From Daucus carota subsp. sativus (lineage: Eukaryota; Streptophyta; Magnoliopsida; Apiales; Apiaceae): DNA of 64,000 nt. Below, in pieces: positions 3,935 through 40,153 of this stretch. The stretch covers positions 28,421,598 to 28,485,597 of the forward strand of contig NC_030385.2 in the NCBI RefSeq assembly GCF_001625215.2, in the 5' to 3' direction. Below the pieces are notes generated by a model. The model was not told the origin of the DNA. It saw only the letters and a list, made by a program, of their open reading frames with translations, and ran no database searches. How positions within the stretch are numbered: position 1 is the stretch's first letter; each line of letters begins with the position of its first letter. A program made the position numbers and the translations under genes.

Positions 3935-4056
3935 AATTATCTTCCGATTTTGTCTTTCTCCAGGTAAGGTATTTCATTCTCCCACTTCAGTTCTTTTTGT
4001 CCTTTTTTGTTTTGTTCGTATGTTGTCTAAAGGGATTTTGTAAACCTTGCAGAGCA

Positions 4057-5570
4057 ATGGAGTTTGCAGGCGTCATTGTAGAGAAGTGGGTTAAAGTATT
4101 GACCAATGCTGATCTGGACTCAGATGAGATGGTTTGTGTTTTTTTTGTTCATTGCATGCCATATGTATCTAAGTCTATGTATATTATGTGAAATGGGCTT
4201 GGTATGTTTTTATAATTGCAGCGATTGCCGCCTAAGTTTGTTAAGAAATATGTTAATCGGCTTAAAACAAATTCCCTGTTGAAATTTCGTAATGGTTACG
4301 AAATAGCCACTGTCTTCAACCATGAAACCGGAACATTCAGTGGACTGTCTACTATGTATGAGGACTTTCTCTTTGAAGTGGGTCAGATGCTAGTGTTTGA
4401 GTTTGATGGTTCTTGTGATTTCAATGTTTATGTCATCGACACTGATCTTACAGAGGTTGAGTACCCTCCAGTTCTTCATCATACACAGAGTGGGCATCCT
4501 CGTGTTGGTAAAATTGTCCTCTAACTGTAGTATTTGTAATGTTCATGTTATCTTTTTGTTATATCTTCAAATATCGAGTATTGGCCTAAATTTATACCCT
4601 CTCTGTTGTTTATCTGTATCATAGTTTCTGTGAAAAGAGGTGGCTTGAAATTTGTTTATTTTGTCAAAGAGGAGTCGCCCCTTTATGATGAATTAGTAAG
4701 TTGGGTTTTGCACTTTGCATTCTTAAATGTTTTCTTTGCTTCATCTACGTGCATGACATTACTGTTTTTTGGCAGGAGCCTCCTGCATCGTTTAAAAGAT
4801 CATTTCGTTTTTTTCCTGGTTATCAGAACTATATTTTTAGTAATGGGAAGAAGATTGACGGGGTTTATAATAATGAAAGTGGTAAATTTAAAGGCCTGAG
4901 CAAATTTTGCTCCATTTTAGGCCTTGAGAATTTTAGCCAGTTTAACTTGGTGCTGTTCACTTATGAGGAACATGGGATGAGTTCTGTAGCTTTTTTTGAT
5001 GATCACTTTGTTGAAGTACTATTCCCTGGAACGCCATTGTCTATTGGTATAGTAGTTTATACATTTCATTTCTAACCTGTGAGTTGTTATGTTTATATAC
5101 GTTGCTGAAGACATTTTTATAGCATTGATATGTGCTTGGTTTATAGGTCAAAACTCAGAGAATCCCACAGCTACTGGACGTATTGAGATTGTCGTGAAGC
5201 CTTATCACATGTACCAATACAGCTACGGAGTGGTAATTTTTGGAGTTATCACCTTTTGAACATTGTTTGGGCATTAGATTTTACTGTTGTTCATCACACA
5301 TGTTCAATGTAGGATGTGTCAACAGTGCATAACTCGATTACCGCTTTCTGGAAGAAGACAGACTACATCAACCTCCACTCAGGAGAAAGGTCATGGAAGG
5401 TGCAGGTCAAGTGTCGAGGTGTCAAAAACCGGCGTTCAACAATCAACAATGGATGGATCCAGCTTAGGGAGGATTTGGGATTGGTCGAAGGTGATATTGT
5501 GGTCTTAGAGTGTGCCCACTTTTGTGGTAATCATTTTGCTCTCCATGTTGTCAAGAATGATGGTGCATAG
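4057..5570 (+). CDS. B3-1, three-domain B3-like DNA-binding protein (first copy, intact)
   Basis: Six exons: 4057-4131, 4222-4507, 4625-4695, 4776-5046, 5147-5232 and 5313-5570, all with GT-AG borders and consistent phases. They give 348 residues. Three B3-like units are seen. The first, RLPPKFVKKYV to FDGSCDFNVYVID, is the clearest. The middle one is weaker (FKRSFRFFPGYQNYIF to FPGTP). The last runs from FWKKTDYINL through SWKVQV to LREDLGLVEGDIVVLEC. The layout resembles plant REM proteins, which bind DNA; no target is evident. A leader intron (3964-4050) ends a few bases before the ATG. The gene converges on RPA-2 and lies next to the Helitron 3' end. This copy reads cleanly, unlike the second copy. 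Confidence 0.78.
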
Positions 5571-6180
5571 AGTTGGTTTATTTGTTATTATGCACTGACG
5601 ATATTTCCAATGGGTCATCCTCTTCTCACGTACTTATAATTACCAAACTGGTAGACTTTGCTGTATTGTTAACGTTGGCCCCTTTTGTGTGCAACTGAAT
5701 ATACTCTATTAGGGAGTAGTAAAATTAAGGCTGGTCATTACTTTTGGTTCAACCTTGGTTATTTACTTTGGTTTATGCTTTTATTGTTTATGTTTTTCGT
5801 TTCCCTTGTATTAACATGTATTAAGTTCTCTGCATTTCTGCTATGGCTTGGTATGTATTAAGTTTAAGTAGCTGTGACATAAGAATAAGAGTTGGCATAT
5901 TTTATGCTGTGCAGTTGTGGAATATGATATTTTATGGGGATGCCTAAACAGAGGAAAATAAATATTAACTTAAAAAATATTAAAACAGAGTTGCAGTTGG
6001 ACTTAATATTACAAATCATAAATTGTTTTGGCAAAAGCTCATAACCATACTATATATAAGAAATCTTATATTAGGGAACTTGTTCAACTGGTTCCTTCTC
6101 CAATGGTGCTTATGTTGTCCAAGTGTATGTTGCTTCCAGTGGTTATAGATGTCTAAGCAATAGAATTGTAATTATCAACG
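5571..6180. other. Convergent spacer between B3-1 and RPA-2 (first copy)
   Basis: Holds the 3' ends of two convergent genes. Apart from AT-rich DNA I see nothing else in it. The second copy lies at 20312-20920. Confidence 0.5.
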
Positions 6181-8209
6181 TTAGATTCTGAAACTGTAGC
6201 TGAGCATTATGTAAAGAACATATGGTTTAGTTCTCATTACCTCCCCGGTAGAGAACTCGGTTGGCTGTTGCAGATATTCCTCAGCCTCCATTGGCTCTTG
6301 GAAATCAAATCCTTCATGTATGTCATTTGCAATATACATTTCGTCGGTGTCTTGGATATTGAAACTTGCAACTTCTAGTTTAACAGTATAGTTCCCACCT
6401 TCCATTTTTTTGAAAACAGATGGGAATTTACCATTGTACTATAGCATGTGTTAGTGTTGGTTAGTTGAATTATAATCTAATGTTTAAGAGTTGAATATTG
6501 AATATACCTCTTCCTCCAACTCGAACACATCCTTGTGAAATAAACTCCGTATTGCTCTGTCCATGAGTAATAAATTTATCTCCCCCGTGTTGTCCTTACC
6601 AAGTACACAAATTCCAAACCTGTTTTCCAGTCAAAATATATTACTCTTACAGTGTAATAGTTGAAGTGGTTAAAGTGTTTAGTTGCATGCTATACTTACC
6701 TCTTTTCTGGATGTGGCACAAATCTGTTGTTGCAATTTTTACAAATTAAACGACCACCTTCTTCGTCAATCTGCTTGTAGCATGATGTGCAGACTAAATA
6801 GTACCATGCATCACAAACCTCAACATGTTTTATTTCAACTTGGCATACCACCTCTTGCTGAGTCAAAGGCACATGTCTTGATGTTAGTAAGAAATAGTAT
6901 GATAAAGCAGAATGTAAGTTATTTTGATATTAACGGGGAAAACCTGTATGTAATCCTCTCTGACTTTCTTTATATCTTCAACTGTCATCAACCTCAAACT
7001 CTTTTTCTCTATCGAAGAATCATTGTTGCTTTTCTTCAGTATATCATTAGCACTATAACATGTTGAAATATATTAAAAAAAGAAGAGTAACGTATAAGAT
7101 GAAAATGTGGCATTTGTAGATGTACATTTTACGCAGTTGCACCACACTGTGGTGGTTGTAGTTGATGTAATAGGCTGTAGGTGAGAAGTTGCAAATGTCC
7201 AGTTCCTCTGATGAATAACCACAGTTTAGAATATTTTGTCGGAGCAGTACATATAATTCTGAAATTGCACTGACTTAAGAGAGTATGGGTTCGTGGAATA
7301 CCTCTAAACATGCCAACTTTACCACTTGCAATGATTAGGATGAAAGGCTCTTCATACTTGTTCTTGTGAATATCTCTTGTAAAATCCTCAGCCATTTTGT
7401 CCCAAAGCACAACATTCAGAGTTGATCTGCAAAACAGTTTTATGATATAAGGCAACATATGCCAGAACCTATTTGAATGAGGTACTAAATTATTTAAACA
7501 AACACTTACTTTCCATCGGAAATCATCATTTTGACTTGTAGTTGCTCTTTTCCATGTCTATTGTTTATTTTTCTTAGAGCATCTCTCTTTGTCACAACAC
7601 CAACAACATCTGGTATGTAAAATGAGATAGTAAAAATGAAACAAACATATGTAATGTACGATGTCCTCAAACTTATGTAGTAAAATTTGATACCTGCAAG
7701 TAGAGTAGTTTGTTTTGATAGTTCCTTCATGTCGGCAAGATCGTAGAAATCAAAACTATTCTTTGCAATGAAATAATCTTTCTCTTCGATTTCTTTTGCC
7801 TTGGTCTGATTTGTAAAAAGAATTTGCCGATCAATGTTTATACTTCTCCACTTGTCCTCAGCAGTCAAGGGTTTAACCTGGAAGTTAGAGATGCAGTACA
7901 TTCGGCCAAGGTGCAGCATTTTCTGCATTTTGTCCATGAGAAACACTGGCACAAATGCATGCATTCTGACGTTCTATCACAGTGAATGTCAATTAGCATT
8001 TGAAGACGTAATCGTAAAATGTTAACATAGCCAAAAAAATATATCCATTTTGAACTTACTCGTGCATCAAGTAGTATGATATTATAGCCATTGATATTTC
8101 CCCCTGAAATCTTGTGCCCTGTCCACTCTCTTACTATGCGAACTTTTACTTTCCAATCAGTTCTACCTTGGTGGCATTTACTGAGAAAATCACAGTTTTG
8201 GGAGCTCAT
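6181..8209 (-). CDS. RPA-2, RPA70-like single-strand DNA-binding protein (first copy)
   Basis: Multi-exon gene; see the second copy at 20921-22948 for the reading. Exon 1 begins MSSQNCDFLSKCHQGRTDWK and runs 150 bases to a GTAAGT donor. Later exons carry OB-fold strands (KEIEEKDYFIAKNSFDFYDL, DVVGVVTKRDALRKI, LNVVLWDKMAEDF) and a zinc-ribbon-like stretch with CTSC and CKNC. One homopolymer difference from the second copy is seen near 7000. The exact 3' exon border is uncertain; the last open frame stops at 6181. Confidence 0.7.
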
Positions 8210-8591
8210 TTCTTGAGAAATGCTTAAGAACAGTACCAATGGTGGTTAAAATGAATAGCTTCAAAGAAACTGTTGGGTGCAACTTAATAGCATTAGGAAG
8301 ATTAACATTTGCTGTTGATTTGATAGGAAGCTGTAAACTTTAATACGGGACTATTACAGTTGGAGATAAATTCGTGTCATTCAATACAGTGTAGTTAATA
8401 CTGCAATATATCTTAGAAAACACATTGTGGAAGGAGCTACAATAAGCATATTAGTTACAAAAGGTGACAATGGTGCAGTTCAAACGGCTGACATAAGTTG
8501 CAATTAATGTTCGAGGACCAAAAGTTACATAGAATTCAAATTTTGTCTTCATGCAAGATCAATTCTGCAGATGCAAACAATAAATCTCAAG

Positions 8592-10887
8592 TCAGAATTT
8601 CAAGTACGCATATGTAGGTAAAATCCATTGCATGGGATAACAGGCTACTACCTTGTATTTCTCATTCTTGATGGATTTTCGCTTGCCAAGCGGTATCGCA
8701 TGCTCCAAATCATAGTCAATTGTCTCTGTTGTCTTCCTTGATCTTGTTTTGTTTGAAGATTTGCCAGTTGGTGGACTCTTATCGTGAATATTACTCTCCT
8801 GAGAAAAAGAATGATTAGTACACGTTTTTCTTTCAAAATAAAGTTGTTTAAGTGTAAAGCTCACAATTGTTAATTCAGTAGCTTTCACTGAAAGGGTAGT
8901 ATTCTTGACAGGTGAATGCGTTGCAGATGTCTCAATGCGTTTTTCTTCACTTTTATCTTCACACAGGGTTGTCTCTAAAACCATGTCTGCTTTGTCATTA
9001 ATCAGTTCGACACTCTCAGCATTGTAAACATTGGATCCTTCTACTACATTTTCCTTCTTCAAGATAAGGGTAAATGTACATGAGATTTTTTCAAAAGCCT
9101 TCAGAGGCAATGGGAAGTAAGCCGACTCACCATCCTGCAATTCATCCCTTTAAAAAATAAAATAATTGAAACGAAACAATGAGAGAATAAATAAATTTCC
9201 TGCATTTGCCACCTGAACATCATCAGCGAGAAAGTCATAGACGGTCTTTCCAGTAAGACGCGTAACTTCATCATCACTCCACATGACAGGTATAGTTCCA
9301 CTTTCGTCGGAACATAAAGTGATTAGCTGATACCTAATGAATACAATTTGTCTAAAATCAGATATCACACATTATATTTATCATGGTTGTAACAGGTAAA
9401 CTAATTTATACCTTTTATCAGGGTATGGTTTCATCTTCCCACAATTAGGACATTTGAATTTGTTCCCACTCAATTCTAGATCAACATCGCAGGCGATACA
9501 ATATTCGGCAAACCATTTCACCTTTTGATCAACTTTTTTCACAGTGAGCTTGCATTGGACTTTTTTCTACAGGATAAAACAGTACGTTAAAAGTGCACTA
9601 CTAAACATTAAAAACATTAAGGTGGCAATCACATACGTCGATATAATCTTCCTTCAAGCTGAGTATCTCTTTCACAGTGAACTTGGGTAATCCAGCTCCA
9701 TCCTCAATTTCCATTTCTGTTTTATAAAATGTCCCATCTTGAAGGCTGGAATTTTGACCGTGTCATGTTAGGCAGGAGCTGAACAATGGACGTTTCAATA
9801 TTACAGTGCTGTTACTTACCTTTTCCGTATTGAGCGCACACTGTGGTGTGAGCTATTCAAATAGACACGGGTAGCTGGAAAATTAGTTAGACTAACTTCA
9901 TCTGTGTGTAATAAGAAACAGGTTCATAAATATGATTATCAAGTAAGTTAGAGAATGGATTTATAATATGAGGATGATATGAGTACCCTTCCATTCATGA
10001 ATTTTTGCACTTGCTATGATCATGATGACTGGTTCATCTGATTTAGTATTCATAGCATCAAGTAGACTCTCTCCAATTTGACCAAAAAATGTTACGTTCA
10101 CATATGACCTACAAAGCAGTGTATTACCTGTCAATCTACTTACTATTTAACAGTGTGGAAATATAAGTATTGACATACCTCCCATCTGTTATAGTACACT
10201 TCACATTAAACTTCTCAGCATTGTCCTTTTGATAAAGTGATTTCTTCGGTAACACATCAATCACTCCAACAACATCTAATAAACAGCATTAGGTTATGAT
10301 TAGTTCTTAACAATGCTTAAACAGTATAAGCTTACAGTTTTGATATTATTTGATTTGTTGGAAACATTTTGTACCTATCAAGAACCGATTATCCTTCTTC
10401 ATTTTTTGAACATCCTCCAAGGCAAAGAAATCAAAACTCTGTGGATGAATTCTTAGTCCAGTTCCATTATCTTTAATAAGTTTTGTATCATTGTTGAAAT
10501 AAATGTGCTTTGAATTCCGCACTGCACGGTAAGTTTCATCTCCATTGTATCTTTTGACAGAGAAATTATAAACTCTGTAAAGAGCTCCTTCTTGAAGAGA
10601 GTCCTTATAGTTGTGGGAGATGTTTGAAGCAATGAAGGCATGTATCCTAACATTCTACAGCAACAATAAATATAAAGATACTGAAAGGGTAACATGACCG
10701 ATGGTGTTAATCCAAAAAAATGGTTTGTAGTACTTACAGAATCATCAATGAAGATGACATTAAAGCCCCGAAACTCATTTTTTTCTTTGCTTCTGCTTTC
10801 CCATATTGATTGCGCTCGTACTCGGATGCTCCAGTCATACCTTGAAGGATGTAACTCGGACAGAGGTGAATGCTGATTGAAAGACAT
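8592..10887 (-). CDS. RPA-1, RPA70-like single-strand DNA-binding protein (first copy)
   Basis: Same gene as 23331-25626, offset by 14739 bases and essentially identical. The ATG at 10887 begins MSFNQHSPLSELHPSRYDW, and a leader intron ends just before it. It lies directly behind RPA-2 on the same strand and is divergent from B3-2. Domain reading and exon borders are given under the second copy. Confidence 0.75.
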
Positions 10888-11281
10888 GTTCTCTTCTGAG
10901 GATAATAAATGAAACAAATTAATTATGGACCGAACGAAAAAAGGCTCATATATAGTTAATCCACACTTACCCTTTGGATGATAGTAGGCTGCAGATGATG
11001 AACAGGGGAAAATGAAGGTTAGGTTGAAAGGGGATCCTATGTATATGAATTCAGATCTAAACAGCTGTACGAAGTGTACACAAAGCAGGAATATAATATT
11101 TTAGGATAATAGTAGTGTGTTCCTCTGTCTGTAGTTAGCAATCGGCGGGAGTACAATGTATATTTTTCAAGTTGTTGGGCGGGACATCGATCATTCATTG
11201 ATTTAATTCAGAGATTTTCCTATTTTAATTTTTTAAAAAAAATAATCTGTCATATTATAATTAAAAAAATAATAATTTCTC

Positions 11282-11390
11282 AGAATATTCTTGAGTAGAT
11301 GGTCTTAGTCTAAATATGATTAGTTTATATTTCTAAGAATATTCTTGAGTAGATGGTCTTACTTTAAATATGATGCTCTCATAATATAAT
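11282..11390. repeat. 54-base tandem repeat, two copies
   Basis: The 26-base word starting AGAATATTCTTGAGTAGATG at 11282 recurs at 11336, and the bases after each are similar (AAATATGAT). The second-copy equivalent lies near 26020-26130. Confidence 0.75.
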
Positions 11391-11454
11391 TTAAAAATAA
11401 AGCTTACAAAAACATGCTTAGTTTGTTAAAAGTTTTAAATTAAGAAGAAACCTA

Positions 11455-12735
11455 TTTTATATCAAATAACTTCTCTATGTGTTATGTATGCAAATAATTC
11501 AGGAATTGTATAGATCAAACGGTATTGTTTATATAAGATACCAGTAAGGCACTGTATGGAATATTGTGTTCATTTTATTATAAAGAACTCGTAATATGTT
11601 CGACATAAGTGACTAATATGAGAATATAAGTCTAATTTAGATGAAATGACCTGTGTATGTGTTATGTATGAAGAAAATTAAATTATTGTCTACATGAAAG
11701 GGGATTGTTGTACATTTTTTTTATATTATTCGTAATTCCGTTAAAAAGACGTTTAATGTAAAATACGATCTTTAATGTCAGCAATAAGCCACTATACTAA
11801 TCACTGTGTTAATATTATTATACGAAACTCATAATATGTCCTGCACCATTAATGCGTAATGAAAAGATAATCCTGTATTATGTATTATGTATGCACATGA
11901 TTAAATAATTGTGTACATGAAACGGGATTGTTGTGCATCTTTTATATATTGTTGGTAATTGCGTTAAAAAGGCTTTTTCTGTAAAAGAGGGTCTTTAAAG
12001 TTAGGAGTAAGCCACTATATCAAATACCATGTTCATAATTTATGTATGAAACTCATAATATGTCCGTCACTATAAGCAACAGATACAAAAATAATGAATT
12101 TTAAACTGGGAAAATAGAATGTCTTGAACATTTAGAAATGCGTAATGAAAAGATAATCCTGCTTTATATCAAATAACTTTTCTATGTATTATGTGTCCAC
12201 ATGATTAAATAATTGTCTACATGAAACAGGATTGTTGTGCATGTCTTATATATTGTTGGTAATTGCGTTAAAAAAGGCTTTTTCTGTAAAAGAGGGTCTT
12301 TAACGTTAGGAGTAAGCCACTATATCAAATACCGTGTTCATAATTTTTATATGAAACTCATAATATGTCCGGCAATATAAGCAACAGATACGAAAATAAT
12401 GAATTTTAAAGTGGGAAAATAGAATGTCCTGAACATTTAGAAATGCGTAATGAAAAGATAATCCTGCTTTATATCAAAAAAGTTGTCTATGTATTATGTA
12501 TGCACAGGATTAAATAATTGTCTACATGAAACGGGATTGTTGTGCATTTTTAATATATTGTTGGTAATTGCGTTAAAAAGGTTTTTTGGTAAAAGAGGGT
12601 CTTTAAGGTTAGGAGTAAGCCACTTTATCCAATACCGTGTTCATAAATTCTGTATGAAACTCATAATATGTCCGGCAATATAAGCAACAAATACGAAAAT
12701 AATGATTTTTTAACTGGGAAAATAGAATGTCCCAA
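11455..12735. repeat. Tandem array of about 290-305-base units inside the Helitron (first copy)
   Basis: The word GAAAAGATAATCCTG recurs at 11861, 12147 and 12452, giving periods of 286 and 305 bases. Each unit continues through TGATTAAATAATTGTCTACA, GGATTGTTGTGCAT, TTGGTAATTGCGTTAAAAA, GAGGGTCTTTAA, GGAGTAAGCCACT and AACTCATAATATGTCC. More diverged units extend left to about 11455. So there are three clear and one or two worn copies. Confidence 0.8.
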
Positions 12736-13115
12736 AGAATTTGTTTTCCAAAATAAATATAAATTATTTAATAATAGTTTTCTTTCGCGAACATTTATTT
12801 GAGGACATTTAAGCCCAATAATTTTCAGTACGGTGTTCTGGTCTGGACATGGTCTTCTTATATGTTCAAGTGTTGTCCAGACATATAATTATTATCATTT
12901 CTTCAGTTTGTAAGTAACTAAGTCTAAGACTAAGAGCAATCTAGTTTCACAGTGCAGAATCTCGGAAGTGCAGAATCTCGGAAGTGTACAGCAATTTACT
13001 TACTGAACAGAGCTATGCGGTGAGTATTGGTTCAGATCTAGATATATCATGTGGTGTTTGGCACACTTGTTTATTCATGTATTTTTGTTTTTTGTATTTT
13101 CCTTTCTCCAGATCT

Positions 13116-14596
13116 ATGGAATGTACCGGTCTTGTGGCGGATAAGTTCGCCGTTCTCCTAGCTTATGAAGAAACTTTGTCGAATAGTTTGGTAAAATATG
13201 TAAATCATTATGTTTTATTTTGATGTCGTCTTCTTACATAGCTACTGTCTGAATTCTTAAATTTGTGTCTGAATATGTTTCAGAATATTCCTACAAAATT
13301 CTCGTCAAAGTACAGTAATCTGTTACATAAGGATATGGAACTAAAATTGCGTAATGGCTATACCTTACCTGTTGAGATTGATTTAGTGAATAGCCAGATG
13401 AGGGGCGTTAAATGTTTTTTCAAGCATTTAGAGTTGAGAGGTGGGGAATTAATTCTGTTTGAGTACTTTGGACGTTCGAAGTTCAACGTTTACATAATTG
13501 GTAGTAATGGGTCGGAGATTCAATACCCAGAAATAGCTGGAGGTTTACCTGCAATAGGTGATTATGTCCTTTTCTTAAAGATTTGGACTTCGTCCATCAA
13601 AACTTACAAACTTGTTATTTAACTGGTTTCTGTATCGTAGTTACAATTGGTGATGCTGGGTGGCGTTTTGTCATTGGTCGTTCTGAGGTAGACCCAATCA
13701 TCGATGAAATTGTGAGTTATGGCTAGTTATGAGTAGTTATTCTTTTTGGGAGAATATACATATATATATATATGCAACTATTCTTTTATGTAGGATCCTC
13801 CTGCTGCCTTCATTGCTCGTTGCGGTTTTGCTTTGCCAGAGCGTATCATATTTGTTCTCTGTAATGGAAAGAGATTTGTTGGAGCATATAATTCAGACAC
13901 CGGACGGCTAAGTGGTTTCAGTTCTATGCTTCAGATAATAGGAAAAGATGATTTGAATGCTGTGAAAAGTTTTTATTTACCTATGACGGTACCAAATTTG
14001 TTTCAATATGTGCATTTGATTGTGAAAATGCTGAGATTGTCTTCCCTGGGACACCAGTTTGTATGGGTAAAGAAAGTCATAAATTTGATAGTGCATATTT
14101 CGTAATAAACTGAATTATATGGTAATTTGACATCCTTTCTGCTAAATATCTTACTTCTACAGATGCAGATGGATCCTATCCTATCATTGGCAAATGGTTT
14201 AGAATCACTGTCGAAAGTAAACATATGTTTGATGACTCCTTCATGGTTGTAAGTGCACTGAGGCATTAACTTGTAGTTTGTGACATTACCTTTATCTCAG
14301 ATTCTATGCTGAATTAGTTTGTTTCTTCCTGGCTTTAGGAAATCTCGAATGAGTTCTCAGACTTGTGTCTGCAGTGGGAAGCCTTCCAATGTATTAATGT
14401 TTATTCAGGAAATGGCTGTTGGAGGCTTCTAATCCGCAAAAGGGAAAACCACTATTGCTATACTATTGAAGATGGGTGGCAAAGACTCCGTGATGATTTG
14501 AGATTAAATGTTGGGAATGTTTGTATTTTCCGATGCCCACGCCAATGTTATGACCAATTCCAGATTCTTGTGGCAAGGGCTAATGATGAAGAGTAA
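13116..14596 (+). CDS. B3-2, three-domain B3-like DNA-binding protein (first copy)
   Basis: Same gene as 27857-29339, with the same exon plan (first exon 13116-13190, second from 13284). It differs from the second copy by one-base changes in T runs: one in intron 1 and one in exon 4 near 13970. The exon-4 change shifts the frame here. I take it as a sequence error rather than decay, because the second copy reads through. Stop at 14596. See the second copy for the domain reading. Confidence 0.72.
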
Positions 14597-15226
14597 AATG
14601 TGATTCTGGTTGTTTTCAGCATTTGACAATGTGGGGGACAAATTTATTCTGACATGTATTTTTAACCAAGAACTATGACTCTTTGCGTTGTTCTGTACCT
14701 GATCTTAAGAACTGTGTTAAGTGTGGTTTTCACTACTGTTGAGTATGCAGGAGCATTGATTGCGTACTTTAAGTTTGATATTCCTGACTTGTTTTTGTTA
14801 TTAGTTTTATTGTTTCCTTTTTCTTTTGAAATAACTTTTATATGTGATATTAGTTGCAGTTGGTTTTATTAGGATGATAGTTTTTCTAAGACTCATCATG
14901 GATATTCGGATGGATATTTGGCACTACTTACTAATGTTTAAATTATCTATTATACTCCATATTTTTCGATGAACATAAATGAATTATATTTGACTTTAAA
15001 TCAAGAACAGTGAAGCTCTCTCATTGTAAGTGAATGTCAAAAAATTTCACAGTGAAGACATAATATATATTAGCTTCCAACAATAGACTCTGTGAGAATG
15101 TCAAGTTGGTGCACCAATTCAGAATTGATCTTGCTGAGCATAACAAACTGAAAAGACATCCTGAACATAAAACAAAGTGCTCAGGTTGCGTCACATACTG
15201 ATCAAACAAAAAAGAATGCACACAAA
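14597..15226. other. Convergent spacer between B3-2 and RepHel (first copy)
   Basis: Holds the 3' ends of B3-2 (+) and RepHel (-). AT-rich with no other feature seen. The second copy is 29340-29971. Confidence 0.5.
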
Positions 15227-18200: not shown

Positions 18201-18571
18201 AAACATATTGGTCAATGTTCTTCTGTAGATGGTGTTTCGCATCAGCTGCTAACCATATAAGCATGTGGACATGAGGGAGTCCACGCTTTTGGAATTCAAC
18301 AACGTACATGACTGTTACAGAAAAAAAAATAAAGAAAGATAAATAACCTACAACATAGACCACACATCACAGGAAATTAAGAAAATAGAGGAACGTCTGA
18401 ATTCTATATTAATTTAGATTTCATACCTCCAAGACATTCTCCAAAGAAGGACTTGTTCTTTATTCATCAATCAATTGTTCAAGCTTTAATTTAAAAACTC
18501 TAGCAATGATGTCCGGGGAATTCTGCGGAAGACAATGTGGTAGTAGTTTCATCATCTGAAATTTCATCCCA
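15227..18571 (-). pseudogene. RepHel 3' part, first copy, cut by the gap and full of small indels
   Basis: This matches the second-copy RepHel from its stop codon up to the exon before the HUH exon. It contains the helicase C-terminal motifs, the YLFKY tyrosine region and the HVH exon near 18.27 kb. Compared with the other copy the frame is broken many times, mostly by losing or gaining one base in short runs, over 15.4-18.5 kb. It ends abruptly at the N run with no terminus. The pattern suits unpolished contig-end sequence better than mutation, so this may not exist as a separate gene. Confidence 0.75.
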
Positions 18572-18671
18572 NNNNNNNNNNNNNNNNNNNNNNNNNNNNN
18601 NNNNNNNNNNNNNNNNNNNNNNNNNNNNNNNNNNNNNNNNNNNNNNNNNNNNNNNNNNNNNNNNNNNNNNN
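18572..18671. other. Assembly gap of exactly 100 N
   Basis: 100 N bases, the usual placeholder for a gap of unknown length. The sequences on either side belong to opposite ends of the same duplicated block, so the gap probably has negative true length (an unmerged overlap). Confidence 0.97.
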
Positions 18672-18798
18672 TGGACTTATCTTCCGATTTTGTTTTCCCA
18701 AGGTAAGGTATTTCATTCTCCCCACTTCAGTTCTTTTTGTCTCTTTTTTGTTTTGTTCGGATGTGTCAAAGGGATTTTGTCTAAAACCTTGCAGAGCA

Positions 18799-20311
18799 AT
18801 GGAGTTTGCAGGCGTCATTGTAGAGAAGTGGGTTAAAGTATTGACCAATGCTGATCTGGACTCAGATGAGATGGTTTGTGTTTTTTTTGTTCATTGCATG
18901 CCATATGTATCTAAGTCTATGTATATTATGTGAAATGGGCTTGGTATGTTTTTATAATTGCAGCGATTGCCGCCTAAGTTTGTTAAGAAATATGTTAATC
19001 GGCTTAAAACAAATTCCCTGTTGAAATTTCGTAATGGTTACGAAATAGCCACTGTCTTCAACCATGAAACCGGAACATTCAGTGGACTGTCTACTATGTA
19101 TGAGGACTTTCTCTTTGAAGTGGGTCAGATGCTAGTGTTTGAGTTTGATGGTTCTTGTGATTTCAATGTTTATGTCATCGACACTGATCTTACAGAGGTT
19201 GAGTACCCTCCAGTTCTTCATCATACACAGAGTGGGCATCCTCGTGTTGGTAAAATTGTCCTCTAACTGTAGTATTTGTAATGTTCATGTTATCTTTTTG
19301 TTATATCTTCAAATATCGAGTATTGGCCTAAATTTATACCCTCTCTGTTGTTTATCTGTATCATAGTTTCTGTGAAAAGAGGTGGCTTGAAATTTGTTTA
19401 TTTTGTCAAAGAGGAGTCGCCCCTTTATGATGATTAGTAAGTTGGGTTTTGCACTTTGCATTCTTAAATGTTTTCTTTGCTTCATCTACGTGCATGACAT
19501 TACTGTTTTTTGGCAGGAGCCTCCTGCATCGTTTAAAAAGATCATTTCGTTTTTTGCCTGGTTATCAGAACTATATTTTTAGTAATGGGAAGAAGATTGA
19601 CGGGGTTTATAATAATGAAAGTGGTAAATTTAAAGGCCTGAGCAAATTTTGCTCCATTTTAGGCCTTGAGAATTTTAGCCAGTTTAACTTGGTGCTGTTC
19701 ACTTATGAGGAACATGGGATGAGTTCTGTAGCTTTTTTTGATGATCACTTTGTTGAAGTACTATTCCCTGGAACGCCATTGTCTATTGGTATAGTAGTTT
19801 ATACATTTCATTTCTAACCTGTGAGTTGTTATGTTTATATACGTTGCTGAAGACATTTTTATAGCATTGATATGTGCTTGGTTTATAGGTCAAAACTCAG
19901 AGAATCCCACAGCTACTGGACGTATTGAGATTGTCGTGAAGCCTTATCACATGTACCAATACAGCTACGGAGTGGTAATTTTTGAGTTATGACCTTTTGA
20001 ACATTGTTTGGGCATTAGATTTTACTGTTGTTCATCACACATGTTCAATGTAGGATGTGTCAACAGTGCATAACTCGATTACCGCTTTCTGGAAGAAGAC
20101 AGACTACATCAACCTCCACTCAGGAGAAAGGTCATGGAAGGTGCAGGTCAAGTGTCGAGGTGTCAAAAACCGGCGTTCAACAATCAACAATGGATGGATC
20201 CAGCTTCGGGAGGATTTGGGATTGGTCGAAGGTGATATTGTGGTCTTAGAGTGTGCCCACTTTTGTGGTAATCATTTTGCTCTCCATGTTGTCAAGAATG
20301 ATGGTGCATAG
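18799..20311 (+). CDS. B3-1, second copy, with small frame differences near the gap
   Basis: Same six-exon gene as 4057-5570. It starts 127 bases right of the gap. Exon 3 has one A fewer before its donor, and exon 4 has homopolymer changes around 19540-19555, so this copy does not read through as printed. The 5' leader (18672-18798) also differs slightly. Exons 2, 5 and 6 match the first copy almost exactly. I regard the first copy as the reliable version. Confidence 0.68.
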
Positions 20312-20920
20312 AGTTGGTTTATTTGTTATTATGCACTGACGATATTTCCAATGGGTCATCCTCTTCTCACGTACTTATAATTACCAAACTGGTAGACTTT
20401 GCTGTATTGTTAACGTTGGCCCCTTTTGTGTGCAACTGAATATACTCTATTAGGGAGTAGTAAAATTAAGGCTGGTCATTACTTTTGGTTCAACCTTGGT
20501 TATTTACTTTGGTTTATGCTTTTATTGTTTATGTTTTTCGTTTCCCTTGTATTAACATGTATTAAGTTCTCTGCATTTCTGCTATGGCTTGGTATGTATT
20601 AAGTTTAAGTAGCTGTGACATAAGAATAAGAGTTGGCATATTTTATGCTGTGCAGTTGTGGAATATGATATTTTATGGGGATGCCTAAACAGAGGAAATA
20701 AATATTAACTTAAAAAATATTAAAACAGAGTTGCAGTTGGACTTAATATTACAAATCATAAATTGTTTTGGCAAAAGCTCATAACCATACTATATATAAG
20801 AAATCTTATATTAGGGAACTTGTTCAACTGGTTCCTTCTCCAATGGTGCTTATGTTGTCCAAGTGTATGTTGCTTCCAGTGGTTATAGATGTCTAAGCAA
20901 TAGAATTGTAATTATCAACG

Positions 20921-22948
20921 TTAGATTCTGAAACTGTAGCTGAGCATTATGTAAAGAACATATGGTTTAGTTCTCATTACCTCCCCGGTAGAGAACTCGG
21001 TTGGCTGTTGCAGATATTCCTCAGCCTCCATTGGCTCTTGGAAATCAAATCCTTCATGTATGTCATTTGCAATATACATTTCGTCGGTGTCTTGGATATT
21101 GAAACTTGCAACTTCTAGTTTAACAGTATAGTTCCCACCTTCCATTTTTTTGAAAACAGATGGGAATTTACCATTGTACTATAGCATGTGTTAGTGTTGG
21201 TTAGTTGAATTATAATCTAATGTTTAAGAGTTGAATATTGAATATACCTCTTCCTCCAACTCGAACACATCCTTGTGAAATAAACTCCGTATTGCTCTGT
21301 CCATGAGTAATAAATTTATCTCCCCCGTGTTGTCCTTACCAAGTACACAAATTCCAAACCTGTTTTCCAGTCAAAATATATTACTCTTACAGTGTAATAG
21401 TTGAAGTGGTTAAAGTGTTTAGTTGCATGCTATACTTACCTCTTTTCTGGATGTGGCACAAATCTGTTGTTGCAATTTTTACAAATTAAACGACCACCTT
21501 CTTCGTCAATCTGCTTGTAGCATGATGTGCAGACTAAATAGTACCATGCATCACAAACCTCAACATGTTTTATTTCAACTTGGCATACCACCTCTTGCTG
21601 AGTCAAAGGCACATGTCTTGATGTTAGTAAGAAATAGTATGATAAAGCAGAATGTAAGTTATTTTGATATTAACGGGGAAAACCTGTATGTAATCCTCTC
21701 TGACTTTCTTTATATCTTCAACTGTCATCAACCTCAACTCTTTTTCTCTATCGAAGAATCATTGTTGCTTTTCTTCAGTATATCATTAGCACTATAACAT
21801 GTTGAAATATATTAAAAAAAGAAGAGTAACGTATAAGATGAAAATGTGGCATTTGTAGATGTACATTTTACGCAGTTGCACCACACTGTGGTGGTTGTAG
21901 TTGATGTAATAGGCTGTAGGTGAGAAGTTGCAAATGTCCAGTTCCTCTGATGAATAACCACAGTTTAGAATATTTTGTCGGAGCAGTACATATAATTCTG
22001 AAATTGCACTGACTTAAGAGAGTATGGGTTCGTGGAATACCTCTAAACATGCCAACTTTACCACTTGCAATGATTAGGATGAAAGGCTCTTCATACTTGT
22101 TCTTGTGAATATCTCTTGTAAAATCCTCAGCCATTTTGTCCCAAAGCACAACATTCAGAGTTGATCTGCAAAACAGTTTTATGATATAAGGCAACATATG
22201 CCAGAACCTATTTGAATGAGGTACTAAATTATTTAAACAAACACTTACTTTCCATCGGAAATCATCATTTTGACTTGTAGTTGCTCTTTTCCATGTCTAT
22301 TGTTTATTTTTCTTAGAGCATCTCTCTTTGTCACAACACCAACAACATCTGGTATGTAAAATGAGATAGTAAAAATGAAACAAACATATGTAATGTACGA
22401 TGTCCTCAAACTTATGTAGTAAAATTTGATACCTGCAAGTAGAGTAGTTTGTTTTGATAGTTCCTTCATGTCGGCAAGATCGTAGAAATCAAAACTATTC
22501 TTTGCAATGAAATAATCTTTCTCTTCGATTTCTTTTGCCTTGGTCTGATTTGTAAAAAGAATTTGCCGATCAATGTTTATACTTCTCCACTTGTCCTCAG
22601 CAGTCAAGGGTTTAACCTGGAAGTTAGAGATGCAGTACATTCGGCCAAGGTGCAGCATTTTCTGCATTTTGTCCATGAGAAACACTGGCACAAATGCATG
22701 CATTCTGACGTTCTATCACAGTGAATGTCAATTAGCATTTGAAGACGTAATCGTAAAATGTTAACATAGCCAAAAAAATATATCCATTTTGAACTTACTC
22801 GTGCATCAAGTAGTATGATATTATAGCCATTGATATTTCCCCCTGAAATCTTGTGCCCTGTCCACTCTCTTACTATGCGAACTTTTACTTTCCAATCAGT
22901 TCTACCTTGGTGGCATTTACTGAGAAAATCACAGTTTTGGGAGCTCAT
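20921..22948 (-). CDS. RPA-2, RPA70-like single-strand DNA-binding protein (second copy)
   Basis: RPA70-like proteins bind single-stranded DNA through OB folds; plant Helitrons often carry them, presumably to protect the displaced strand during rolling-circle transfer. Exon 1 (22948-22799, 150 bases) encodes MSSQNCDFLSKCHQGRTDWK and the first OB strands, then a GTAAGT donor. The next exon starts NVRMHAFVPVFLMDKMQ. A later exon starts DVVGVVTKRDALRKI, followed by LNVVLWDKMAEDF, the typical middle OB fold. A zinc ribbon with CTSC and CKNC pairs follows (about 21470-21600), as in the RPA70 C-terminal domain. The final open frame (MEGGNYTVKLEV onward) stops at 20921; a donor-like GGTAATGAG near 20980 leaves the true end open. 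Exon 1 equals RPA-1 exon 1 in length, so the two are paralogues. Confidence 0.75.
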
Positions 22949-23330
22949 TTCTTGAGAAATGCTTAAGAACAGTACCAATGGTGGTTAAAATGAATAGCTT
23001 CAAAGAAACTGTTGGGTGCAACTTAATAGCATTAGGAAGATTAACATTTGCTGTTGATTTGATAGGAAGCTGTAAACTTTAATACGGGACTATTACAGTT
23101 GGAGATAAATTCGTGTCATTCAATACAGTGTAGTTAATACTGCAATATATCTTAGAAAACACATTGTGGAAGGAGCTACAATAAGCATATTAGTTACAAA
23201 AGGTGACAATGGTGCAGTTCAAACGGCTGACATAAGTTGCAATTAATGTTCGAGGACCAAAAGTTACATAGAATTCAAATTTTGTCTTCATGCAAGATCA
23301 ATTCTGCAGATGCAAACAATAAATCTCAAG

Positions 23331-25626
23331 TCAGAATTTCAAGTACGCATATGTAGGTAAAATCCATTGCATGGGATAACAGGCTACTACCTTGTATTTC
23401 TCATTCTTGATGGATTTTCGCTTGCCAAGCGGTATCGCATGCTCCAAATCATAGTCAATTGTCTCTGTTGTCTTCCTTGATCTTGTTTTGTTTGAAGATT
23501 TGCCAGTTGGTGGACTCTTATCGTGAATATTACTCTCCTGAGAAAAAGAATGATTAGTACACGTTTTTCTTTCAAAATAAAGTTGTTTAAGTGTAAAGCT
23601 CACAATTGTTAATTCAGTAGCTTTCACTGAAAGGGTAGTATTCTTGACAGGTGAATGCGTTGCAGATGTCTCAATGCGTTTTTCTTCACTTTTATCTTCA
23701 CACAGGGTTGTCTCTAAAACCATGTCTGCTTTGTCATTAATCAGTTCGACACTCTCAGCATTGTAAACATTGGATCCTTCTACTACATTTTCCTTCTTCA
23801 AGATAAGGGTAAATGTACATGAGATTTTTTCAAAAGCCTTCAGAGGCAATGGGAAGTAAGCCGACTCACCATCCTGCAATTCATCCCTTTAAAAAATAAA
23901 ATAATTGAAACGAAACAATGAGAGAATAAATAAATTTCCTGCATTTGCCACCTGAACATCATCAGCGAGAAAGTCATAGACGGTCTTTCCAGTAAGACGC
24001 GTAACTTCATCATCACTCCACATGACAGGTATAGTTCCACTTTCGTCGGAACATAAAGTGATTAGCTGATACCTAATGAATACAATTTGTCTAAAATCAG
24101 ATATCACACATTATATTTATCATGGTTGTAACAGGTAAACTAATTTATACCTTTTATCAGGGTATGGTTTCATCTTCCCACAATTAGGACATTTGAATTT
24201 GTTCCCACTCAATTCTAGATCAACATCGCAGGCGATACAATATTCGGCAAACCATTTCACCTTTTGATCAACTTTTTTCACAGTGAGCTTGCATTGGACT
24301 TTTTTCTACAGGATAAAACAGTACGTTAAAAGTGCACTACTAAACATTAAAAACATTAAGGTGGCAATCACATACGTCGATATAATCTTCCTTCAAGCTG
24401 AGTATCTCTTTCACAGTGAACTTGGGTAATCCAGCTCCATCCTCAATTTCCATTTCTGTTTTATAAAATGTCCCATCTTGAAGGCTGGAATTTTGACCGT
24501 GTCATGTTAGGCAGGAGCTGAACAATGGACGTTTCAATATTACAGTGCTGTTACTTACCTTTTCCGTATTGAGCGCACACTGTGGTGTGAGCTATTCAAA
24601 TAGACACGGGTAGCTGGAAAATTAGTTAGACTAACTTCATCTGTGTGTAATAAGAAACAGGTTCATAAATATGATTATCAAGTAAGTTAGAGAATGGATT
24701 TATAATATGAGGATGATATGAGTACCCTTCCATTCATGAATTTTTGCACTTGCTATGATCATGATGACTGGTTCATCTGATTTAGTATTCATAGCATCAA
24801 GTAGACTCTCTCCAATTTGACCAAAAAATGTTACGTTCACATATGACCTACAAAGCAGTGTATTACCTGTCAATCTACTTACTATTTAACAGTGTGGAAA
24901 TATAAGTATTGACATACCTCCCATCTGTTATAGTACACTTCACATTAAACTTCTCAGCATTGTCCTTTTGATAAAGTGATTTCTTCGGTAACACATCAAT
25001 CACTCCAACAACATCTAATAAACAGCATTAGGTTATGATTAGTTCTTAACAATGCTTAAACAGTATAAGCTTACAGTTTTGATATTATTTGATTTGTTGG
25101 AAACATTTTGTACCTATCAAGAACCGATTATCCTTCTTCATTTTTTGAACATCCTCCAAGGCAAAGAAATCAAAACTCTGTGGATGAATTCTTAGTCCAG
25201 TTCCATTATCTTTAATAAGTTTTGTATCATTGTTGAAATAAATGTGCTTTGAATTCCGCACTGCACGGTAAGTTTCATCTCCATTGTATCTTTTGACAGA
25301 GAAATTATAAACTCTGTAAAGAGCTCCTTCTTGAAGAGAGTCCTTATAGTTGTGGGAGATGTTTGAAGCAATGAAGGCATGTATCCTAACATTCTACAGC
25401 AACAATAAATATAAAGATACTGAAAGGGTAACATGACCGATGGTGTTAATCCAAAAAAATGGTTTGTAGTACTTACAGAATCATCAATGAAGATGACATT
25501 AAAGCCCCGAAACTCATTTTTTTCTTTGCTTCTGCTTTCCCATATTGATTGCGCTCGTACTCGGATGCTCCAGTCATACCTTGAAGGATGTAACTCGGAC
25601 AGAGGTGAATGCTGATTGAAAGACAT
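23331..25626 (-). CDS. RPA-1, RPA70-like single-strand DNA-binding protein (second copy)
   Basis: Exons I can place: 25626-25477, 25393-25114, 25014-24918, 24847-24726, 24640-24559, 24484-24376, 24305-24151, 24072-23952 and from 23873 on; an intron near 23607-23537 is likely. The protein starts MSFNQHSPLSELHPSRYDW, the usual start of Helitron and RPA1 DBD-A (ELHPSR.DW). It continues DVVGVIDVLPKKSLY and YVNVTFFGQIGESLLDAM (DBD-B). Next comes a zinc ribbon (CIAC, then CPNCG) with a C-terminal OB fold (GTIPVMWSDDEVTRLTG), matching DBD-C. A lysine/serine-rich tail ends LPTYAYLKF. A leader intron appears to end at CAG about 12 bases before the ATG. Complete domain order suggests a working single-strand-binding protein for the Helitron. 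Confidence 0.8.
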
Positions 25627-27856
25627 GTTCTCTTCTGAGGATAATAAATGAAACAAATTAATTATGGACCGAACGAAAAAAGGCTCATATATAGTTAATC
25701 CACACTTACCCTTTGGATGATAGTAGGCTGCAGATGATGAACAGGGGAAAATGAAGGTTAGGTTGAAAGGGGATCCTATGTATATGAATTCAGATCTAAA
25801 CAGCTGTACGAAGTGTACACAAAGCAGGAATATAATATTTTAGGATAATAGTAGTGTGTTCCTCTGTCTGTAGTTAGCAATCGGCGGGAGTACAATGTAT
25901 ATTTTTCAAGTTGTTGGGCGGGACATCGATCATTCATTGATTTAATTCAGAGATTTTCCTATTTTAATTTTTTAAAAAAAATAATCTGTCATATTATAAT
26001 TAAAAAAATAATAATTTCTCAGAATATTCTTGAGTAGATGGTCTTAGTCTAAATATGATTAGTTTATATTTCTAAGAATATTCTTGAGTAGATGGTCTTA
26101 CTTTAAATATGATGCTCTCATAATATAATTTAAAAATAAAAGCTTACAAAAAACATGCTTAGTTTGTTAAAAGTTTTAAATTAAGAAGAAACCTATTTTA
26201 TATCAAATAACTTCTCTATGTGTTATGTATGCAAATAATTCAGGAATTGTATAGATCAAACGGTATTGTTTATATAAGATACCAGTAAGGCACTGTATGG
26301 AATATTGTGTTCATTTTATTATAAAGAACTCGTAATATGTTCGACATAAGTGACTAATATGAGAATATAAGTCTAATTTAGATGAAATGACCTGTGTATG
26401 TGTTATGTATGAAGAAAATTAAATTATTGTCTACATGAAAGGGGATTGTTGTACATTTTTTTTATATTATTCGTAATTCCGTTAAAAAGACGTTTAATGT
26501 AAAATACGATCTTTAATGTCAGCAATAAGCCACTATACTAATCACTGTGTTAATATTATTATACGAAACTCATAATATGTCCTGCACCATTAATGCGTAA
26601 TGAAAAGATAATCCTGTATTATGTATTATGTATGCACATGATTAAATAATTGTGTACATGAAACGGGATTGTTGTGCATCTTTTATATATTGTTGGTAAT
26701 TGCGTTAAAAAGGCTTTTTCTGTAAAAGAGGGTCTTTAAAGTTAGGAGTAAGCCACTATATCAAATACCATGTTCATAATTTATGTATGAAACTCATAAT
26801 ATGTCCGTCACTATAAGCAACAGATACAAAAATAATGAATTTTAAACTGGGAAAATAGAATGTCTTGAACATTTAGAAATGCGTAATGAAAAGATAATCC
26901 TGCTTTATATCAAATAACTTTTCTATGTATTATGTGTCCACATGATTAAATAATTGTCTACATGAAACAGGATTGTTGTGCATGTCTTATATATTGTTGG
27001 TAATTGCGTTAAAAAGGCTTTTTCTGTAAAAGAGGGTCTTTAACGTTAGGAGTAAGCCACTATATCAAATACCGTGTTCATAATTTTTATATGAAACTCA
27101 TAATATGTCCGGCAATATAAGCAACAGATACGAAAATAATGAATTTTAAAGTGGGAAAATAGAATGTCCTGAACATTTAGAAATGCGTAATGAAAAGATA
27201 ATCCTGCTTTATATCAAAAAAGTTGTCTATGTATTATGTATGCACAGGATTAAATAATTGTCTACATGAAACGGGATTGTTGTGCATTTTTAATATATTG
27301 TTGGTAATTGCGTTAAAAAGGTTTTTTGGTAAAAGAGGGTCTTTAAGGTTAGGAGTAAGCCACTTTATCCAATACCGTGTTCATAAATTCTGTATGAAAC
27401 TCATAATATGTCCGGCAATATAAGCAACAAATACGAAAATAATGATTTTTTAACTGGGAAAATAGAATGTCCCAAAGAATTTGTTTTCCAAAATAAATAT
27501 AAATTATTTAATAATAGTTTTCTTTTCGCGAACATTTATTTGAGGACATTTAAGCCCAATAATTTTCAGTACGGTGTTCTGGTCTGGACATGGTCTTCTT
27601 ATATGTTCAAGTGTTGTCCAGACATATAATTATTATCATTTCTTCAGTTTGTAAGTAACTAAGTCTAAGACTAAGAGCAATCTAGTTTCACAGTGCAGAA
27701 TCTCGGAAGTGCAGAATCTCGGAAGTGTACAGCAATTTACTTACTGAACAGAGCTATGCGGTGAGTATTGGTTCAGATCTAGATATATCATGTGGTGTTT
27801 GGCACACTTGTTTATTCATGTATTTTTGTTTTTTGTATTTTCCTTTCTCCAGATCT
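25627..27856. other. Divergent RPA-1/B3-2 intergenic region (second copy)
   Basis: No gene. Same content as 10888-13115: 54-base repeat, ~300-base tandem array, 16-base direct repeat, and the B3-2 leader intron at 27761-27852. Differences from the first copy are a few single bases in A or T runs. Confidence 0.6.
26195..27475. repeat. Tandem array of about 290-305-base units (second copy)
   Basis: Same array as 11455-12735, shifted by about 14.74 kb, with three clear and one or two worn units. The two copies agree unit by unit, which again points to one real locus. Confidence 0.8.
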
Positions 27857-29339
27857 ATGGAATGTACCGGTCTTGTGGCGGATAAGTTCGCCGTTCTCCT
27901 AGCTTATGAAGAAACTTTGTCGAATAGTTTGGTAAAATATGTAAATCATTATGTTTTATTTTTGATGTCGTCTTCTTACATAGCTACTGTCTGAATTCTT
28001 AAATTTGTGTCTGAATATGTTTCAGAATATTCCTACAAAATTCTCGTCAAAGTACAGTAATCTGTTACATAAGGATATGGAACTAAAATTGCGTAATGGC
28101 TATACCTTACCTGTTGAGATTGATTTAGTGAATAGCCAGATGAGGGGCGTTAAATGTTTTTTCAAGCATTTAGAGTTGAGAGGTGGGGAATTAATTCTGT
28201 TTGAGTACTTTGGACGTTCGAAGTTCAACGTTTACATAATTGGTAGTAATGGGTCGGAGATTCAATACCCAGAAATAGCTGGAGGTTTACCTGCAATAGG
28301 TGATTATGTCCTTTTCTTAAAGATTTGGACTTCGTCCATCAAAACTTACAAACTTGTTATTTAACTGGTTTCTGTATCGTAGTTACAATTGGTGATGCTG
28401 GGTGGCGTTTTGTCATTGGTCGTTCTGAGGTAGACCCAATCATCGATGAAATTGTGAGTTATGGCTAGTTATGAGTAGTTATTCTTTTTGGGAGAATATA
28501 CATATATATATATATGCAACTATTCTTTTATGTAGGATCCTCCTGCTGCCTTCATTGCTCGTTGCGGTTTTGCTTTGCCAGAGCGTATCATATTTGTTCT
28601 CTGTAATGGAAAGAGATTTGTTGGAGCATATAATTCAGACACCGGACGGCTAAGTGGTTTCAGTTCTATGCTTCAGATAATAGGAAAAGATGATTTGAAT
28701 GCTGTGAAAAGTTTTTTATTTACCTATGACGGTACCAAATTTGTTTCAATATGTGCATTTGATTGTGAAAATGCTGAGATTGTCTTCCCTGGGACACCAG
28801 TTTGTATGGGTAAAGAAAGTCATAAATTTGATAGTGCATATTTCGTAATAAACTGAATTATATGGTAATTTGACATCCTTTCTGCTAAATATCTTACTTC
28901 TACAGATGCAGATGGATCCTATCCTATCATTGGCAAATGGTTTAGAATCACTGTCGAAAGTAAACATATGTTTGATGACTCCTTCATGGTTGTAAGTGCA
29001 CTGAGGCATTAACTTGTAGTTTGTGACATTACCTTTATCTCAGATTCTATGCTGAATTAGTTTGTTTCTTCCTGGCTTTAGGAAATCTCGAATGAGTTCT
29101 CAGACTTGTGTCTGCAGTGGGAAGCCTTCCAATGTATTAATGTTTATTCAGGAAATGGCTGTTGGAGGCTTCTAATCCGCAAAAGGGAAAACCACTATTG
29201 CTATACTATTGAAGATGGGTGGCAAAGACTCCGTGATGATTTGAGATTAAATGTTGGGAATGTTTGTATTTTCCGATGCCCACGCCAATGTTATGACCAA
29301 TTCCAGATTCTTGTGGCAAGGGCTAATGATGAAGAGTAA
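27857..29339 (+). CDS. B3-2, three-domain B3-like DNA-binding protein (second copy, intact)
   Basis: Six exons: 27857-27931, 28026-28299, 28383-28453, 28536-28809, 28906-28991 and 29082-29339, giving 345 residues. Exons 1, 3, 5 and 6 have exactly the lengths of B3-1 (75, 71, 86, 258) and all phases agree, so the genes are paralogues. Unit 1 runs IPTKFSSKYSNLL to FEYFGRSKFNVYIIG, a recognisable B3 end. Unit 2 runs ARCGFALPERIIFVL to VFPGTPVCMG. Unit 3 runs CINVYSGNGCWRLLIR to LRDDLRLNVGNVCIF. Similarity to the other protein is moderate, so the duplication is old compared with the present insertion. A leader intron (27761-27852) ends 4 bases before the ATG, as in B3-1. It converges on RepHel. 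DNA binding is expected from the family; the role in the Helitron is unknown. Confidence 0.78.
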
Positions 29340-40133: not shown

Positions 40134-40153
40134 GGCTTTATAATTTTAATAGA
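40134..40153 (-). other. Helitron 5' terminus
   Basis: On the minus strand the element begins TCTATTAAAATTATAAAGCC, close to the plant Helitron start TCTATACTAT..AAAGCC. The base before it on that strand is A (T at 40154), as expected for an A^T insertion. Confidence 0.85.

Follow-up and report, generated by a model that had tools for sequence, protein, structure and literature searches.

Two triple-B3 genes of carrot (Daucus carota subsp. sativus), B3-1 and B3-2, are carried by a Helitron transposon, and we hold with high confidence that they belong stably to one Helitron lineage, under selection, and are not cargo. The element lies in a 64,000-nucleotide stretch of contig NC_030385.2 (assembly GCF_001625215.2, forward-strand positions 28,421,598 to 28,485,597), called the window here. 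C1-C8 are contigs of the carrot genome, the window lies on C5, and coordinates without a contig prefix are window positions. The B3 genes are located inside the element, recur across the genome in a fixed orientation, share an exon structure, are under purifying selection and encode domains that form separate clades. The explanation that best accounts for the whole, with a probability of about three in four, is that an RPA-bearing Helitron lineage captured a B3 regulator and retained it. An initial annotation, made from the sequence alone, had proposed an element-encoded, duplicated and maintained B3 pair; recurrence, clades and the ratio of non-synonymous to synonymous divergence (dN/dS) bear out all three parts. 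The principal features are as follows.

3225..40153, minus strand: Helitron as assembled, bounded by the limits of homology with the C3 insertion (3224/3225 and 40153/40154)
3225..3252, minus strand: 3' terminus, with hairpin GCCCATGCGGAGCGGGC at 3252-3236, a spacer, CTAG at 3228-3225 and then T, read from the sequence
40152..40153, minus strand: 5' terminus TC with A before it (A^TC at 40154/40153), at the end of homology with the C3 insertion
4057..5570, plus strand: B3-1, intact; six coding exons, 348 amino acids, three B3-type domains
18799..20311, plus strand: B3-1 of the second unit, with two frameshifts
13116..14596 (end approximate), plus strand: B3-2 of the first unit, with one frameshift in exon 4
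27857..29339, plus strand: B3-2 of the second unit, intact; 344 or 345 amino acids
29972..37820, minus strand: RepHel (Helitron_like_N, PIF1), interrupted by a 3139-bp duplication
15346..18571, minus strand: RepHel of the first unit (Helitron_like_N, PIF1), truncated at an assembly gap
6184..8209 (limits approximate), minus strand: RPA1, RPA-like gene with introns, DUF223; exons matched in C8 and C6, duplicated about 14.74 kb further right
8595..10887 (limits approximate), minus strand: RPA2, RPA-like gene with introns, DUF223; exons matched in C8 and C6, duplicated about 14.74 kb further right

The window element is a Helitron in all features tested, and the maintained REM-like module is its new part. 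Its ends have a 5' TC, a 3' hairpin followed by CTRR and insertion between A and T, and the same hairpin with CTAG^T occurs at C8:16701899, C6:28521296 and both C3 ends. Flanking DNA differs between the window (C5) and the C3 insertion (C3 ~44.68-44.74 Mb), both element ends are common to the two, and the B3 genes lie inside. RepHel matches Pfam PF14214 (Helitron_like_N) and PF05970 (PIF1) above their cut-offs. With exons joined by eye, both RPA-like genes match DUF223 above and REPA_OB_2 below the cut-off; single RPA exon pieces gave no match in a Pfam scan. RPA2 also matches PDB entry 4gnx at 1.4e-8. As initially annotated, the B3 genes occupy the plus strand inside the Helitron, opposite RepHel and the RPA genes on the minus strand. 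The annotated interval (4057-29339) does hold a Helitron with B3-1 and B3-2, but it covers two near-identical units and not one plain element. The assembled span includes a 100-N gap, a doubled 14.65-kb unit and a 3.1-kb duplication, and comes to about 19 kb without them (by subtraction). A simple search for 3' hairpins located no clear end in the C3x and C2 elements, and its ranking by energy put the known window end only in fourth place and the C6 end in second; the 3' end calls rest on the shared hairpin sequence. The window 3' end (3225-3345) has 24 genome matches; 20 of them, short stretches of 51-133 bp at 72-90%, lie outside the window, the C3 array and C3:58.9 Mb and are probably the ends of non-autonomous relatives.

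The annotated pair of six-exon triple-B3 genes stands in its exon structure and Pfam B3 matches. B3-1 (exons 4057-4131, 4222-4507, 4625-4695, 4776-5046, 5147-5232 and 5313-5570) has GT-AG introns and exon lengths of 75/286/71/271/86/258 including the stop, and encodes an uninterrupted protein of 348 residues. The exons of B3-2 lie at 27857-27931, 28026-28299, 28383-28453, 28536-28809, 28906-28988 or -28991, and 29082-29339; exon 5 is 83 or 86 nucleotides long with both donors open, which yields the alternative protein lengths. Pfam B3 (PF02362) is matched by all 11 intact B3 proteins scanned, those of the window over the cut-off, and a PDB profile search gave weak B3 matches (E 0.24-0.57). The proteins contain several B3 domains and no other Pfam domain was found in them. 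Intact models have the six-exon structure in common, and splice-aware alignment recovered intact B3-1 in 7 of 13 models and intact B3-2 in 11 of 16. The leader intron proposed to end just before the ATG fared unevenly: an acceptor AG lies 2-4 nucleotides before the ATG in all eight B3 genes of the four elements examined, but a plausible donor 90-114 nucleotides upstream occurs in only six. One gene has a candidate only at 227 nucleotides, and another has none of the donor patterns searched.

Recurrence was assessed in 441,086,747 bases on 11 contigs; B3-1, B3-2 and the central part of RepHel served as queries, and matches to the helicase and RPA were included later. The match tables hold the best 113 of 275, 117 of 483, 116 of 464, 150 of 936, 80 of 333 and 150 of 391 matches, and the locus lists were compiled from them by hand, mostly with one coordinate per gene; all counts of loci below are among the matches listed. 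Grouping gave 85 B3 loci, 78 of them outside the window and the C3 array, and 59 of these 78 have a RepHel or RPA relative no more than 40 kb away. This linkage count leaves out 28 of 113 RepHel entries, all at ≤53% identity. The B3 locus and the nearest match lie on opposite strands in 44 of 46 cases for RepHel and 53 of 55 for RPA, a test of strand for the nearest match and not of side. For RepHel alone, the B3 locus is on the opposite strand and 3' side within 40 kb in 41 cases and in another arrangement in 3; the other 34 have no RepHel match at that distance. For a random point the chance is 1.9% (C4 and C8 sizes rounded), and strand and side reject a chance neighbourhood of B3 with RepHel or RPA. 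The B3 genes are thus not confined to one insertion; such confinement was an outcome that the initial annotation had named as telling against it. The 59 linked loci are a lower bound, because two unlinked loci show traces of the element: a weak RPA match beside the B3 genes at C1:15.49 Mb and a Rep fragment adjoining B3-1 at C3:58.9 Mb. At C5:25.55 and C6:3.48 Mb neither RPA nor RepHel was present in the 20 kb read. A B3-like match group at C5:24.64-24.68 Mb lies on the same strand as its nearest RepHel match and is an exception to the antisense rule.

Viewed from RepHel, B3 genes lie downstream and antisense within 40 kb of 39 of 82 matches at ≥59% identity (34 of 77, by subtraction, without the five window and C3-array entries), compared with none of 31 at ≤56% by these queries (two of 31 if general Pfam matches are counted). 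B3 carriage therefore marks one RepHel lineage, about half of whose matches show none. In a Pfam control, 14 of 80 B3 loci fell within 25 kb of RepHel, and the number rose to 17 at 40 kb, with 11 of these 17 pairs antisense and downstream; the control exceeds the random expectation partly because some of its loci are themselves B3 genes beside RepHel.

Gene order is likewise conserved in diverged elements. The elements at C8:16.70-16.72 and C6:28.50-28.52 Mb run from RepHel through antisense B3-2, RPA2, RPA1 and antisense B3-1 to the 3' end; relative to the window, RepHel is 60-72% and the B3 genes are 46-61% identical, with order and 3' hairpin kept. Match tables show the same five-gene order at C4:17.64, C5:28.40 and C7:41.30 Mb. 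The C5:28402706-28416970 element, left of the window, is a lineage member with RepHel, two RPA and two B3 matches, tail to tail with the window element and about 8 kb from it. Another order, RepHel, RPA, B3-3, B3-1, B3-2, occurs at C2:47.45 Mb, with the same B3 trio at C1:15.49 and C7:9.45 Mb. B3-3 is a third triple-B3 gene, 30-45% identical to B3-1 and B3-2, between B3-1 and the RPA side.

C2:47.45-47.461, C7:9.445-9.452 and C1:15.494-15.500 Mb: B3-3-bearing loci
C8:16701899-16720211 and C6:28503370-28521296: pair compared for synonymous divergence (dS), with an abrupt change between RPA1 and B3-1

Five RepHel matches tie at 554.6 bits (two on C2, two on C6 and one on C7), each with two RPA and two B3 matches after it at similar spacings, which indicates that B3-bearing elements were recently copied. 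The C8 and C6 elements differ by dS of 0.33-0.46 in RepHel, 0.44 in B3-2, 0.49 in RPA2, 0.68 in RPA1 and 2.5 (near saturation) in B3-1. This jump at the last gene indicates that B3-1 was swapped between elements, and the 3' end was probably exchanged with it. The window B3-2 is closer to B3-2 of C2 and C7 (68% of amino acids) than to that of C8 and C6 (46-49%), although the layout is shared with C8 and C6.

Selection is evident where insertions have diverged enough to be informative. Seven unsaturated pairs (dS 0.28-1.08) have dN/dS of 0.24-0.43, each with a Fisher p ≤3.2e-6: B3-1 in C5/C3x (dS 0.28, dN/dS 0.24) and C2/C7 (0.30, 0.31), and B3-2 in C2/C7 (0.32, 0.43), C8/C6 (0.44, 0.36), C5/C2 (0.66, 0.30), C2/C5b (0.95, 0.31) and C5/C5b (1.08, 0.25). 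Further B3 pairs in the same dS range give 0.22-0.43, most pairs of that comparison being saturated. The set includes three genes with frameshifts or stops (B3-1 of C3x and C2r, B3-2 of C7), from which the affected codons were dropped. Copies left out are B3-1 of C5u2, C3A, C1 and C6b and B3-2 of C5u1, C3B, C1 and C6b; B3-2 of C3C is intact and was not paired. A ratio near 1 among insertions, also named in advance as telling against maintenance, is therefore not seen in the diverged pairs. Between C8 and C6 the Rep and helicase parts have dN/dS of 0.06-0.14 and the RPA pieces 0.20 and 0.33, so the constraint on the B3 genes is roughly that on RPA. Between the C5 and C3 insertions there are four synonymous and three non-synonymous changes in 692 codons, too few to be informative alone.

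The origin of the genes was approached with a tree of single B3 domains (53 rows, 96 columns) that includes 20 host domains from five stretches, the host loci being named REM from B3 clusters of the carrot genome itself and not from annotation; the program warns of few columns. The first and second Helitron domains form one clade (100/100, stem 1.43 changes per column) and the third domains another (100/99, stem 1.54). The third-domain clade joins host domains of matching type (99/85), and the first/second-domain clade falls weakly among host first-type domains. The Helitron domains thus group beside B3 clusters of their own genome on long stems, in a tree with few columns and some weak forks. 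This pattern favours a single old capture of a REM-type gene, after which the first domain would have been duplicated and then the gene. Recent capture from a host REM gene is disfavoured by the tree and by recurrence in diverged elements. Nor is there a close match to a host REM gene, the third outcome named beforehand, since the clades are separate and long-stemmed relative to the 20 host domains, a small sample.

We propose the following history and function. An RPA-bearing plant Helitron lineage would long ago have captured a REM-type B3 gene, which would have become triple-B3 by formation of its second domain from the first. Duplication would then have produced B3-1 and B3-2, with a third copy, B3-3, in some elements, and the genes would since have been inherited as standard element parts, antisense to RepHel and RPA. 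B3 domains bind DNA, and because the gene pair is kept by selection inside a transposon it most likely acts on that transposon. The proteins would be sequence-specific DNA-binding factors that most likely bind non-coding regions of the element and set the place and strength of its expression, either by activation or by keeping silencing off, and the paralogues may divide or combine target sites. Self-acting regulation of element expression or silencing is the role towards which we lean, at somewhat better than even odds. We rank it first, followed by a role at the element ends and then by interference with host REM factors. The finding suggests that this lineage uses a borrowed plant regulator for self-control or to evade silencing.

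A role at the ends would make the B3 proteins transposition cofactors that bind subterminal DNA and assist RepHel in locating or processing the ends. In C5, C8 and C6 the distance from B3-1 to the 3' end is 832-920 bp, and gene and end appear to have been exchanged as a block between C8 and C6. However, B3-2 is mid-element in the RepHel-(B3-2)-RPA2-RPA1-(B3-1) layout, and no B3 was found near most RepHel matches, which implies that RepHel does not generally depend on B3; we regard this role as improbable. Action on the host seems no more probable. Here the proteins would be mimics or decoys that interfere with the host REM factors guiding Pol IV, or would alter host reproductive gene expression for the benefit of the element. 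The resemblance of Helitron domains to host REM-type domains is compatible with this, as is the recruitment of Pol IV by REM factors in Arabidopsis, reported in the available portion of PMC12270911. Long stems separate the Helitron domains from the 20 sampled host domains, however, so the same sites or partners are not a given.

The doubled layout of the window affects how its frameshifts are read. Positions 3933-18571 and 18673-33320 are 99.5% identical, with 16 mismatches and 43 gap openings, and the repeat stops where the N run begins and resumes within two bases of its end.

18572..18671, no strand: 100-N assembly gap (N run) at the junction of the two units
11656..12733, no strand: tandem repeats of ~304 bp in the window, between the divergent RPA2 and B3-2

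The two units probably represent a single insertion, the pattern being that expected of an unmerged contig overlap; since the repeat limits coincide with the gap and the differences are mainly indels, they are not to be counted as two insertions, and the two-insertion reading is rejected. The frameshifts in the left B3-2 and right B3-1 are then probably read errors in two unmerged contig ends. The initial observation that each gene reads through in at least one copy holds for the reading frames, but it is unusable as evidence of selection because one insertion is probably seen twice. Tandem Helitrons are known, and C3 likewise has three units in a row without N runs, which would fit a true tandem such as a rolling-circle concatemer. 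We consider a tandem very unlikely in the window, where the repeat is bounded by the gap and does not span the element from one end to the other, and where the excess of gap openings over mismatches resembles read errors. The carrot DH1 v3 assembly was built from PacBio and Nanopore reads (PMC10581907, available text), a further point against a tandem. In the C3 array (C3:44677675-44738004) the first and third units agree at 99.5% and share 10 bp past the 3' end; the middle unit, with 447 gap openings in 10.9 kb, looks unpolished, so the array was counted as one insertion. The first C3 unit is broken up by roughly 14 kb of other DNA, and repeats of at least 555 bp on the two sides of this stretch suggest a long terminal repeat retrotransposon. 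The direct duplication that interrupts RepHel in the C5 element (3139 bp, 99.97%; 31389-34527 and 34528-37669) is absent from C3 copy A and may be real or an assembly fault. In other elements the RPA2/B3-2 interval has a 138-bp repeat (C6) or none (C8). Neighbouring host reading frames at 1093-2433, 52446-53297 and 54833-58034 resemble F-box, RING-finger and HSP70 genes (named by eye).

Several observations weigh against a retained, self-acting B3 regulator. Six of 13 B3-1 and five of 16 B3-2 models are interrupted, and two very recent pairs have dN/dS of about 0.7, not significantly below 1; such a ratio would be expected if selection acts only on lineages still moving. Only one genome was searched, 34 of 78 B3 loci lack a RepHel match at up to 40 kb, 19 are near neither RepHel nor RPA, and 43 of 82 RepHel matches at ≥59% identity have no B3 by these queries. 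The histories of B3-1 and B3-2 differ in places from that of RepHel, so the B3 genes could be swapped modules and not strictly inherited parts. No convincing shared motif was found in the non-coding DNA of C5, C8 and C6: 38 10-mers are common to them (null mean 16.5, maximum 34), nearly all A/T runs. The motif AATAGGAAAAT, considered as a self-binding site, occurs once in each of the C8 and C6 stretches and once per window unit in inconsistent orientation, and nothing is drawn from it. Passive cargo, with the B3 genes as host fragments moved by Helitrons, scarcely deserves credence: Helitrons often carry such fragments, and the interrupted models and recent pairs would suit it, but orientation and position are fixed in diverged elements, six-exon genes are intact at 46-61% identity, dN/dS is 0.24-0.43 and the domains form their own clades.

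Helitrons are usually described with RepHel, in plants often with RPA, and otherwise with decaying host fragments. RPA-bearing plant Helitrons, as portrayed for Mothra in the available part of PMC4683698, resemble the carrot element in their TC/CTAG ends, 3' hairpin, A^T target, PIF1 RepHel and RPA-like genes; what sets the carrot element apart is its two or three triple-B3 genes, which are antisense and under selection. The terms 'B3 domain' and 'transcription factor' are absent from the main text of that paper, and 'B3 domain' is absent from the available text of PMC13317346. The literature searched, whose coverage is incomplete (most subscription journals and preprints lie outside it), yielded no paper tying Helitrons to B3 genes, as judged by titles and the opening lines of abstracts. 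Members of the REM group are similar to the carrot proteins in having several B3 domains and no other Pfam domain, and the N- and C-terminal domain types match host REM-type exons; the carrot proteins differ in being carried by a transposon and in the separate clades of their domains. A possible parallel is the Arabidopsis VANDAL transposon, which encodes VANC, a protein that binds repeated motifs in the transposon's own non-coding DNA (PMC5735166, in part): both systems have a transposon-encoded DNA-binding protein and tandem repeats in non-coding element DNA. VANDAL belongs to an unrelated transposon class, and the VANC targets described there are short motifs in dense arrays, whereas the carrot tandem repeats occur in C5 and C6 and not in C8, with no convincing motif in common. 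VANC proteins are not known to have a B3 domain. By analogy, the REM-type gene may have been turned into a counter-silencing system, a convergent counterpart of VANC in which the B3 pair would occupy the promoters of the element itself, perhaps at the tandem-repeat interval, and block or redirect sequence-guided silencing; we think this doubtful, though worth stating. Since Pol IV silencing in Arabidopsis is directed by REM proteins (PMC12270911), the question of whether transposons take over the sequence-guided silencing factors of their hosts becomes testable. Some of the B3 or REM genes counted in plant genomes may belong to transposons. With its duplicated and selected gene for a DNA-binding factor, this lineage shows that a rolling-circle transposon is able to acquire a durable regulatory module.

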